Source: Solibacillus sp. FSL H8-0538
Lineage (GTDB): Bacteria > Bacillota > Bacilli > Bacillales_A > Planococcaceae
Direction of reading: 5' to 3'
DNA length: 64,000 bases
NCBI RefSeq assembly: GCF_038003525.1
Contig: NZ_JBBOPI010000001.1
Span: 3,440,001 to 3,504,000 of the forward strand
Part shown: piece after piece, positions 19,105 through 23,222 of the stretch
Layout: each line of letters begins with the position of its first letter
How positions within the stretch are numbered: the stretch's first letter is position 1
Translations under genes and position numbers: made by a program
The notes under the pieces: model-generated
Told to the model about the DNA's origin: nothing
Databases searched by the model: none
The model's input: only the letters and a program-made list of their open reading frames with translations

Positions 19105-20265
19105 ATGAAAAAGGCACTTTTATTACTGATGTCCATTCAATTCCTTGTGTACTTAGGGTTTGCGATTATTATTCCCGTCTTACCCGAAGTTATCATACAG
19201 CAAGGCTGGGATGAAATTCACGTCGGCGGTTTATTAACCGTTTATGCTTTAGCAAGCTTCTTCACCGCTCCTCTATGGGGGCAGCTATCTGATAAAATCG
19301 GACGCAAACAATTGATTTTAATTGGACTCATTGGCTTTAGCCTAAGTTTTATTATCTTTAGTGTATTCATTAGCAATTTATTCATGCTTTATGTCTCACG
19401 TGTTATTGGTGGCTTGTTCTCCGGTGCTCTCTATACTGCTGTTACAGGTTTCATTGGGGATATGTCTACAAACGAGACCCGTAATAAGTATATGGGCTTT
19501 ATGGGCATGTCAATTGGACTTGGCTTTATTTTCGGTCCAGCAATTGGCGGGGTACTCGGCCATATTAGTTTACAGCTTCCGTTCATTGCGTCTGCTGCTC
19601 TGATCGCACTTCTATTTGTTTACGCTTTATTCGTGCTGCGTGAACCCGAGCGCTCTGGACAAGCAAATAAACGCGTACTTGTTCCGACTGGTGCTACCCA
19701 TTTATTAAAATATCGTGTTCGCTATTTATTTCTTTTTTCTTTTTTCGTAACGTTTACGCTCGCTGGTGTTGAAGCGACGTTCCAGCTTTTCCAAATCGAA
19801 CGAATTGCCATCACACCGTTACAGCTTGGTTATTTATTTATGTTTAGTGGCTTTGCAGATGCAGCAATTCAAGGCGGTGTCGTACGACGAATTAAAGACG
19901 GGGCAGAGGTTAAATGGCTAATCGGCGCCCAAATTGTTACAGCAGTAGGACTACTTCTCATTACATTGACAACAAGCCTAGTGTTTGCCGGAGTCGCTTT
20001 AGCTGTGTTTACTGCTGGAAACGCGCTCGCTAGAACTTGTGTCGTCTCACTCACTTCTAAAGAATCAGGAGGGAAATACGGCACAGCAGCTGGACTCACA
20101 TACTCCATGGATAATTTAGGTCGTATAATCGGCCCGCTATTTTTCGCAGGTTTATTTAAGCTTGAGCCAACAATGACCTATTATTTCGGCATTATTTTCG
20201 CGGTGCTGACAATCCTATTTATCCTATTATTTAAAAAATCCACTAACACTTTACGAATTGATTAA
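19105..20265 (+). CDS. MFS drug-efflux-type transporter (DHA1 family)
   Basis: This 386-residue protein has twelve predicted transmembrane segments. The MFS signature between TM2 and TM3 is LWGQLSDKIGRKQLI (about 67-81), and motif C-like GLGFIFGPAIGGVLG (about 150-164) indicates a proton antiporter of the multidrug type (NorA/Bmr relatives). The substrate is unknown. ATG at 19105 follows AGCAGG; the longer frame from 19015 lacks a ribosome-binding site. Monocistronic with a strong terminator. Confidence 0.88.
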   Translation: MKKALLLLMSIQFLVYLGFAIIIPVLPEVIIQQGWDEIHVGGLLTVYALASFFTAPLWGQLSDKIGRKQLILIGLIGFSLSFIIFSVFISNLFMLYVSRVIGGLFSGALYTAVTGFIGDMSTNETRNKYMGFMGMSIGLGFIFGPAIGGVLGHISLQLPFIASAALIALLFVYALFVLREPERSGQANKRVLVPTGATHLLKYRVRYLFLFSFFVTFTLAGVEATFQLFQIERIAITPLQLGYLFMFSGFADAAIQGGVVRRIKDGAEVKWLIGAQIVTAVGLLLITLTTSLVFAGVALAVFTAGNALARTCVVSLTSKESGGKYGTAAGLTYSMDNLGRIIGPLFFAGLFKLEPTMTYYFGIIFAVLTILFILLFKKSTNTLRID

Positions 20266-20583: not shown

Positions 20584-20838
20584 TTATAACATGAAAAAAG
20601 AGTGAGTCTCGTCGCAAGAGCAGATTTCGTTATTGAGCCAATTTTTTGTATCCTTATTAACTACTTTTATCGGAGTGACGTATCAACTAATTTTACAGTC
20701 CCTCCTTTTGTTCTCTCATTTCATGCAAACCCCTTTTATTTCTATTTTTAACTAAAAAAACATATAAAACTTATGGAGTAAGCACAAACTGAAGATACTT
20801 CTGTTTCAAGCAGGTAAAACTTGAAGCAACTTCACTTC

Positions 20839-20856
20839 AAAGGAGGAATTAACATA
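20839..20856 (+). promoter_or_regulatory. Perfect Shine-Dalgarno followed by an ATA codon
   Basis: AAAGGAGG at 20839-20846 is followed 7 nt later by ATA at 20854, in frame with the YwqG-like gene. No ATG or GTG lies at that spacing. This site decides the likely start of the next gene. Confidence 0.6.
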
Positions 20857-21651
20857 AATTCACCCAGACAGCTTCATGTACCGAAGGAGTTTGAAAACTT
20901 TCGCGTACATTTACAAAATTCAGCCGTCGTAACTTCCATAATTTACCCCATTCATGGTAAACCTAAAATTTACGAAAGTAAGCTTGCAGGATACCCATAC
21001 TTACCACGAGATGCAGTACATCCAAAAGATGCTAACGGGCAGTACATGCTGTTATTAGCACAAATTAATTTTTCTGAAGTACATTTAGGTGCCCCATTCC
21101 CAACACAAGGCCTCCTACAATTTTATATTTCAGAACACTGTTATCACCATGCTCAATTAGGTACTGGGGATAGACTTTATAAAATACGGTACTACCCTAC
21201 AATTATTGACAAGTCACATCTCATTTCCGACTTCTCTTATTTAACACAAACATATTCTACTGATTTCCCGATTAATAGTGAATTGGGTATTCAATTTTCG
21301 ACAGCGATTGAACCGGTTTCAGCAACTGATTATCGATTATCATATTATTTTAACCCCTTAATATCGGGAGAGCATTTTGCAGTGGATGGGCGCACATTTA
21401 ACGACCTGTACTTAGAGAACTTTTTAAGCGCAGACCACAAAGTAGGCGGTTACCCTTATTTTATTGAGGAAGATATTCGTAAAAATTCTGTAGCCCTTCA
21501 ATGCTATGACACGCTATTACTTCAAATTGTTTCAAATGATGAACACGGTATTATGTGGGGCGACTGTGGTGTGATGAGCTTTTTTATTAACTCTAAAAAG
21601 CTACAGCATTTGGATTTCTCGGATATTTACTTTCATACAGAAGATTATTAA
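20854..21651 (+). CDS. YwqG-like DUF1963 protein
   Basis: A soluble protein of about 265 residues with family hallmarks such as YLPRDAVHPKDANG (about 47-60), MLLLAQINFSEV (about 64-75), GLLQFYISE (about 85-93) and the C-terminal IMWGDCGVMSFFI. YwqG proteins are conserved but their function is unknown. The natural N-terminus is probably INSPRQLHVPKEFENF, starting at ATA 20854 behind a perfect Shine-Dalgarno sequence. The alternative TTG at 20821 would add 11 residues encoded across that ribosome-binding site. No transmembrane segment. Confidence 0.85.
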   Translation: MNSPRQLHVPKEFENFRVHLQNSAVVTSIIYPIHGKPKIYESKLAGYPYLPRDAVHPKDANGQYMLLLAQINFSEVHLGAPFPTQGLLQFYISEHCYHHAQLGTGDRLYKIRYYPTIIDKSHLISDFSYLTQTYSTDFPINSELGIQFSTAIEPVSATDYRLSYYFNPLISGEHFAVDGRTFNDLYLENFLSADHKVGGYPYFIEEDIRKNSVALQCYDTLLLQIVSNDEHGIMWGDCGVMSFFINSKKLQHLDFSDIYFHTEDY

Positions 21652-21688: not shown

Positions 21689-21764
21689 TGTTGAGGCTAT
21701 TCATTTTAACTCGCCTTACATTACGTTATAATTATGTTCATTATAGTTAAAGTAGGTGAAAATA

Positions 21765-23222
21765 TTGGCCACCTTTTTAGATATGAGTTACATTTTACCC
21801 ATTGTTACATTCCTAAATATTTCATTTGCTTTAACGCTCATTTTTTTAGAGCGTAAAGATCCATCATCTAGTTGGGCTTGGATACTCGTATTATTCTTCC
21901 TTCCATTAGTGGGCTTTGTATTCTATTTATTGCTCGGTAGAAAGCTACGAAAAAAGCATTTATTCCGTTGGGAAGGAAGCAAAGATATTGGGATCGACAA
22001 ATTAATCGATTTTCAAATTGAAGCGATAAAAAATGACCAACTCGATTACCGAACAGATCATGTCAAAGATTATAATCATCTTATTTATATGAACCTCACG
22101 ACAAACAATTCCGTTTTAACACAGGACAATGATGTCGTCATTTATCTGGATGGGACAGATAAGTTTGAGGCACTTATTGAGGATATTTTAGCTGCGAAGG
22201 ATCATATTCATATTCAGTATTATATTTTTAAGGTAGATAATTTAGGACAACGCATTTTGAATGTTCTTATTAAAAAAGTAAAACAGGGTGTAAAGGTACG
22301 TATTTTATATGATGAGATGGGGTCACGCGGTGTCAGAAAGCGCCATTTTAAAGATTTGACTGATGTAGGTGGCGAAGTCGAAGTATTTTTCCCTTCGATT
22401 TTTCCGATGATTAACCCTCGTCTAAACTTCCGAAACCACCGAAAAATCGTTGTGATTGATGGGCGTATTGGTTATATTGGTGGCTTTAATGTAGGGGATG
22501 AGTACTTAGGCTTAACCTCCAAATTCGGCTATTGGCGTGATACGCATTTACGTATTGAAGGCAGTGCCGTGCATCCGCTCCAAACTCGTTTCATACTAGA
22601 CTGGAATCAAGCAAGTACCAAACAGCGGATTAATTATTCAGAACGTTATTTCCCTGCTATCCCCAAAAAGGGAGAAGCTGCGATGCAAATCATTTCAAGT
22701 GGTCCAGATACCGAGTGGGAAGTTATTAAAAATGGCTATATAAAGCTCATTACTAATGCAAAGAAATATGTTTATATTCAGTCCCCCTATTTCATTCCGG
22801 ATGACAGCTTTTTAGACGCTGTAAAAATCGCTACGCTCTCGGGCATTGATGTTCGCATTATGATTCCCAATAAGCCGGATCATATTTTTGTATTCTGGGC
22901 GACTTACTCCTATGTTGGACAGCTTGTACACGCGGGCGCAAAAATTTATCATTACGCAAAAGGATTTATACACGCAAAAATGATTGTTGTTGATGACGAG
23001 GCTGCATCTGTTGGTACAGCAAATATTGACGTGCGAAGCTTTAGCTTAAACTTTGAAGTGAATGCCTTTATTTATGATCGTGAAATTGCACATAAACTAG
23101 CAGAAATTTTTGAGCAGGATATTTTAGATTGCTCCGAGCTAACCGTAGAAATTTATGAAAACCGCTCAAATATTGTAAAGTTTAAAGAATCTATTTCGAG
23201 ACTATTATCTCCAATACTATAA
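21765..23222 (+). CDS. cls: Cardiolipin synthase
   Basis: A protein of about 485 residues with two N-terminal transmembrane helices and two phospholipase D HKD motifs: NHRKIVVIDGRIGYIGGFN (about 223) and HAKMIVVDDEAASVGTANID (about 402). It joins two phosphatidylglycerols to make cardiolipin at the membrane. TTG at 21765 is preferred because AGGTGA lies 5-6 nt upstream; a GTG at 21756 overlaps that site. The length is typical of Firmicute Cls. Confidence 0.95.
   Translation: MATFLDMSYILPIVTFLNISFALTLIFLERKDPSSSWAWILVLFFLPLVGFVFYLLLGRKLRKKHLFRWEGSKDIGIDKLIDFQIEAIKNDQLDYRTDHVKDYNHLIYMNLTTNNSVLTQDNDVVIYLDGTDKFEALIEDILAAKDHIHIQYYIFKVDNLGQRILNVLIKKVKQGVKVRILYDEMGSRGVRKRHFKDLTDVGGEVEVFFPSIFPMINPRLNFRNHRKIVVIDGRIGYIGGFNVGDEYLGLTSKFGYWRDTHLRIEGSAVHPLQTRFILDWNQASTKQRINYSERYFPAIPKKGEAAMQIISSGPDTEWEVIKNGYIKLITNAKKYVYIQSPYFIPDDSFLDAVKIATLSGIDVRIMIPNKPDHIFVFWATYSYVGQLVHAGAKIYHYAKGFIHAKMIVVDDEAASVGTANIDVRSFSLNFEVNAFIYDREIAHKLAEIFEQDILDCSELTVEIYENRSNIVKFKESISRLLSPIL

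Follow-up and report, generated by a model that had tools for sequence, protein, structure and literature searches.

The YwqG-like gene of Solibacillus sp. FSL H8-0538 probably begins at an AUA codon at position 20854 of the 64,000-nucleotide stretch of DNA that was analysed (the window), where initiation would be weak but real and would follow a lineage-specific substitution of the start codon. Sequence comparison and the analogy with AUA starts of Staphylococcus aureus lead us to give this reading a probability of roughly 0.68. The features of the window on which the argument depends are as follows.

19105..20265, + strand: upstream neighbour, major facilitator transporter (PF07690, E 4.5e-55)
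20802..20828, + strand: predicted 9-bp hairpin with TTG in its 3' arm, within an outer 5-bp stem 20790-20839 (fold of 20790-20900)
20821..20823, + strand: alternative start TTG, adding 11 residues and leaving the Shine-Dalgarno sequence inside the gene (own Shine-Dalgarno -5.7 kcal/mol; unpaired 0.00-0.04)
20839..20846, + strand: Shine-Dalgarno AAAGGAGG (16S 3'-tail pairing -12.1 kcal/mol)
20847..20853, + strand: 7-nt spacer AATTAAC (commonest AGGAGG-to-start spacing in a 464-kb sample)
20854..20856, + strand: ATA in start-codon position (exact start of 46/69 orthologues, the other 23 within -2 to +3 codons; predicted unpaired 0.98-0.99)
20854..21651, + strand: proposed coding sequence, DUF1963/YwqG-like, 265 codons plus stop (PF09234, E 7.9e-48; 1pv5, E 9e-40; 0/45 near-invariant columns changed)
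21756..23222, + strand: downstream neighbour, cardiolipin synthase (TIGR04265, 637 bits, cut-off 290)

The ATA site and its reading frame

As read in the window, the Shine-Dalgarno (SD) sequence AAAGGAGG at 20839-20846 is followed by AATTAAC at 20847-20853 and then by ATA at 20854-20856. The 7-nt spacing that an earlier sequence-only reading had described as ideal is exact, and it is also the mode (13/57) among AGGAGG motifs followed by an ATG, GTG or TTG opening at least 100 codons in the 464-kb sample. With 16S 3'-tail letters that were not taken from the genome of this strain, SD pairing before the ATA comes to -12.1 kcal/mol, and 62/69 orthologue SDs are weaker. The earlier description of this SD as perfect calls for some qualification, since 7/69 orthologues have an equal or stronger SD and the sequence is mostly paired in one of six predicted folds.

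In none of the three frames does an ATG, GTG or TTG occur 3-13 nt after the SD, in agreement with the earlier statement that no usable canonical codon is present apart from an upstream TTG. This TTG, at 20821, is the sole canonical in-frame start upstream of the ATA, and the first in-frame ATG, GTG or TTG downstream is a Met codon, residue 76 when counted from this TTG. The site has the layout of natural AUA starts with extended SDs, in that a strong SD at working distance precedes a near-cognate codon which opens a frame of 265 codons.

Start positions in orthologous loci

A search of 261 family genomes found a YwqG-like match in 115, the source genome included. The 71 other loci that were read comprised 69 fetched loci and those of Lysinibacillus antri and L. 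odysseyi, the latter two being contigs already among the 69; removal of duplicates (L002 = L022 and L003 = L106) gave 69 distinct other loci, with the lower-scoring remainder of the 115 left out. A script took as the start of each orthologue whichever canonical codon had the best SD energy, a choice that partly builds in the presence of an SD and leaves its position free. The codon so chosen was ATG in 51, GTG in 11 and TTG in 7 of the 69 loci.

The sequence-only reading had placed the ATA in frame at the expected N-terminus of a YwqG-like protein and had suggested looking at orthologues for an ATG at this position, and both the protein matches (PF09234 and 1pv5) and the orthologue starts agree with this placement. 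A canonical start behind an SD falls within -2 to +3 codons of the ATA in 69/69 loci, 46 of them exactly, with 2, 15, 46, 4, 1 and 1 loci at query positions 10, 11, 12, 13, 14 and 15, respectively, where position 12 is the ATA. In the protein alignment, 47/68 orthologues begin in the column of the ATA reading. Because canonical starts lie at or near the ATA in all 69 orthologues, the ATA occupies the start position, and this coincidence is what raises the site above chance. ATA itself is in start position in 0/69 other loci, which confines it to its lineage and sets it apart from the conserved regulatory non-canonical starts of ccpN and infC.

Start codons also vary elsewhere in the family. 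Within genus g18 (e.g., L006, L019, L024-L026, and L028-L032) the start is GTG or TTG in 18/25 orthologues, and ATG is used in all 44 orthologues outside g18. Judged from these codons, g18 is a case of genus-wide weakening of the YwqG-like start codon, and since all 18 non-ATG starts belong to it, weak starts do occur in this gene family.

Protein family, conservation, and gene neighbourhood

The encoded protein matches PF09234 (DUF1963) with an E-value of 7.9e-48 (164 bits against a cut-off of 23) over profile positions 1-213 of 216, and the relative with a solved structure is B. subtilis YwqG (1pv5, E 9e-40). A GGxP-like motif and a conserved Gln mark the TYPP superfamily (PMC4275035), and both are found in the translation, in VGGYPYF and LLAQINF, respectively. 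According to the accessible text of the same source, a chaperone-like role has been proposed for the superfamily, with no evidence of a ribosome-assembly role for its bacterial members (PMC4275035). Compared with YwqG, DUF1963 and TYPP proteins, all features of the protein are family-like and only its start codon is unusual.

Conservation was assessed against 68 other sequences, leaving out L103, whose frame closes after 48 codons. At the 45 columns conserved in at least 97% of these sequences the YwqG-like protein does not deviate, and at the 90% level it is changed in 2/68 columns (F to L and L to I, both exchanges of large hydrophobics), which ranks it 43 of 69 against a median of about 1/68. 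The protein is 45.9% identical to the outgroup genus g7 (g16, 40.2%; g18, 44.7%) and 42.0% identical to g3 (g16, 38.3%; g18, 42.4%). The sequence thus bears no sign of relaxed constraint or accelerated divergence, although a very recent loss of the start would be expected to leave none either.

The cardiolipin synthase gene adjoins the YwqG-like gene in 31/31 other loci with wide flanks (L002 and L022 being one genome). The upstream transporter (19105-20265, + strand) matches Tet(A)/Tet(B)/Tet(C)-type efflux proteins at 169 bits, far under the family cut-off of 475, and is therefore described as a general efflux-type transporter and not called a resistance gene.

SD and ATA combinations in the genome

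There are 214 genomic matches to the pattern AAGGAGG-N5-9-ATG and 45 to a reversed-pattern control, and the corresponding figures with ATA are 46 and 64; the bare combination of SD and ATA is accordingly not enriched, and a general use of AUA as start codon here is ruled out. The 46 places correspond to 48 ATA sites when read singly, two SDs being counted at two spacings. Only 2/48 sites open at least 100 codons and lack a canonical start 3-13 nt past the SD, namely the site at 20854 and one at C1:1256138. The latter (L045, G000:C1:1256138-1256155, + strand) reads AAGGAGG-N8-ATA and opens 188 codons of a predicted membrane-like open reading frame; a TTG lies six codons upstream of its ATA, and the frame has relatives in just 2 other of the 261 genomes. 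Among good SDs in 464 kb, the non-canonical codons with the best SD were ATA in 7, ATT in 22, ATC in 3 and CTG in 2 cases. A canonical candidate was absent in 1/7 ATA cases, which is the one in the window, and in 3/22 ATT cases, which resemble internal chance matches, and an SD followed by AUH is therefore not in itself evidence of a start.

Alternative starts and alternative explanations

Translation might instead start mainly at TTG 20821 behind a weak AGGT, which would give a 276-residue protein with AAAGGAGG as a relic inside the gene. This codon is canonical and in frame, AGGT stands ahead of it (-5.7 kcal/mol) and the frame is open; among the orthologues, 22/69 carry a canonical codon in frame at a distance of 6-20 codons upstream and 32/69 have at least 11 open codons, and an upstream extension is hence not impossible in the family. 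However, the SD of the TTG is 6.4 kcal/mol weaker than that of the ATA (-5.7 vs. -12.1 kcal/mol), and the codon lies within a predicted stem, its unpaired probability over six folded windows being 0.00-0.04 against 0.98-0.99 for the ATA. The SD before the ATA is unpaired at 0.44-0.60 in five of these windows and at 0.06 in the sixth (20700-20900), and the fold of 20790-20900 is itself a modest prediction (z -2.25, with 6/200 shuffles equally stable). An in-frame stop within 11 codons upstream in 37/69 orthologues also argues against a TTG-started extension, as does the ACTTCA ahead of the SD, which is similar to the 5' untranslated DNA of several g16 orthologues. The weak SD, the predicted pairing and the upstream stops together make use of TTG 20821 unlikely.

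If the ATA does mark the start, it could still be a base-calling or assembly error for a true ATG, since a one-base change would restore the canonical start type of 69/69 orthologues and a protein free of decay fits such an error. The assembly has two contigs and 99.96% completeness, however, and of the 46 AAGGAGG-N5-9-ATA places only 20854 combines a long frame with canonical-start orthologues; as the lone case among 46, it does not point to systematic G-to-A errors at starts, and an error here would be quite improbable. Loss of the start codon, which would leave the gene effectively silent as a very young pseudogene, is about equally hard to credit. It would agree with AUA being usually far weaker than AUG and with an ATA private to its lineage; a recent loss would not yet show in the protein. 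Against it stand the intact 265-codon frame, the lack of accelerated divergence and the 0/45 near-invariant columns changed, together with the ~10% of AUG activity which, in the accessible account of S. aureus reporters, AUA keeps behind a strong SD (PMC13009471). With one genome of the genus compared, the ATA could be fixed, or could stem from a sequencing error or from a mutation of this strain.

Weak AUA initiation after a lineage-specific substitution is the explanation that we prefer. The sequence-only reading, which is borne out for the site itself and for the most part in its interpretation, had offered two branches, rare AUA initiation or a start-codon mutation lowering expression; both still stand, and the two are probably one and the same, namely a substitution that leaves weak AUA initiation. 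Mechanistically, the 8-base SD pairing would hold the 30S subunit on the mRNA, and the initiator tRNA (anticodon CAU) would accept AUA in the P site, mismatched at its third position, although IF3 acts to reject it. The protein would then be made with fMet as its first residue at a reduced rate, perhaps 10-30% of that from AUG if S. aureus ccpN and citZ are a guide. The simplest origin would be a single ATG-to-ATA transition, and the ATA may be tolerated because a low dose of the protein suffices; in the related genus g18 the start is already GTG or TTG in 18/25 orthologues.

Other RNA elements upstream of the gene were also considered. The sequence CCCTCCTTTTG at window positions 20700-20710 (+ strand) includes CCTCCTTT, the exact complement of the SD at 20839-20846, and may pair with it if transcribed. 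Sequestration of the SD by this CCTCCTTT, ~150 nt upstream, gave p 0.012 with mononucleotide shuffles but was set aside as a curiosity, as 0/68 orthologues tested have the element and the longer fold does not stand out (z -0.83); in the SD-complement shuffle test, 1/69 loci reached p ≤0.05. Coupling to a short upstream open reading frame was rejected, the candidates at 20708, 20723 and 20773 all being without an SD, and an Rfam search of the window gave no match at gathering score.

Non-canonical starts of ccpN and infC

The ccpN gene of the same genome (L137, G000:C1:2373103-2373282, minus strand) begins with ATA-GAA-CTC-AAT behind GCGGGTGAG. It was first found by a query match, and its identity was then confirmed independently by the CcpN profile NF053704, which matches the protein from residue 1, the ATA codon, at 338.5 bits (cut-off 260). 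Across 60 family genomes (L137 and L141-L199) this column reads ATC in 34, ATA in 16, ATG in 6 and TTG in 4, and the ten canonical cases mark it as the start. A TGA lies three codons upstream in L145, L146, and L151, and the first canonical codon beyond the column there is a TTG 10 codons downstream, already within the conserved N-terminus; owing to the upstream TGA, ATC is the sole plausible start in these three. The other 47 non-canonical cases have a GTG three codons upstream, within the SD, and two of them (L160 and L176) have a GTG or ATG directly before the start column.

An AUA start of ccpN has been described in S. aureus and is conserved in B. subtilis (Kohl et al., 2026, PMC13009471), and AUC is not mentioned in the accessible text of that paper. 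The retention of ATC or ATA in 50/60 family genomes looks like conserved AUC/AUA translational control, and the persistence of a non-canonical codon across the family suggests selection. On the precedent of ccpN, AUA and AUC starts are, so far as the aligned codons tell, at home in the clade, and the ccpN pattern may outdo the ATA of the YwqG-like gene in interest. The infC gene (L096, G000:C1:2661383-2661880, minus strand) reads TTGGAGGTGG-ATT-ATT-ATT-AGC-AAA-GAC, which would fit an AUU start of the kind that other bacteria use.

Possible regulation and significance

A more far-reaching proposal is that in this lineage the AUA was selected as a valve for dose and growth rate, so that the YwqG-like gene would join infC and ccpN among a few AUA-, AUC- or AUU-started genes whose translation tracks IF3 and initiator-tRNA supply, tuned further by the hairpin that buries the TTG and possibly by the anti-SD element at 20700-20710. 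This we hold to be improbable, and we know of no link between YwqG and IF3. If it were true, a relative of the eukaryotic ribosome-assembly chaperones TSR4/PDCD2 would be coupled to the state of the initiation machinery.

Gene finders accept only ATG, GTG and TTG as starts. As a consequence, a wrong N-terminus (here TTG 20821) would be listed for a gene of this type, and AUA, AUC and AUU starts are undercounted. The combination used here, namely a strong SD, no canonical codon, and a position that matches the starts of homologues, is a cheap recipe for finding such starts. Comparison with orthologues further splits them into two classes, private starts such as the ATA of the YwqG-like gene and family-conserved starts such as the AUC/AUA of ccpN, with regulation likely in the latter.

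Comparison with known AUA starts

Among the literature matches listed, no title deals with the start codon of the YwqG/DUF1963 family, and the nearest parallels come from S. aureus, in which AUA starts with extended SDs have been shown for infC, ccpN and citZ by Ribo-Ret and reporters (PMC13009471). As given in the accessible text, AUA or AUU behind an extended SD has ~10% of AUG activity in poor medium, a figure that also holds for the citZ AUA reporter, and ccpN reaches up to 30% in rich medium (PMC13009471). The AUA of citZ resembles that of the YwqG-like gene in being lineage-restricted, with a start that is presumably canonical elsewhere; it differs in being established by Ribo-Ret and reporters and common to the NCTC 8325 lineage (PMC13009471), whereas the ATA of the YwqG-like gene is known from the sequence of one genome. 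The ccpN gene shares with the YwqG-like gene an AUA behind a strong extended SD in the same genome, but its start is non-canonical in 50/60 family genomes and the ATA of the YwqG-like gene is private (0/69 others). Similarly, infC has an AUA/AUU/AUC-type start read through a strong SD, and it differs from the YwqG-like gene in encoding IF3 and being autoregulated. Taken with these systems, and on the strength of the sequence comparisons, the ATA of the YwqG-like gene is private to its lineage and not a conserved regulatory start, and it is a credible new case of a rare, already documented type of start.
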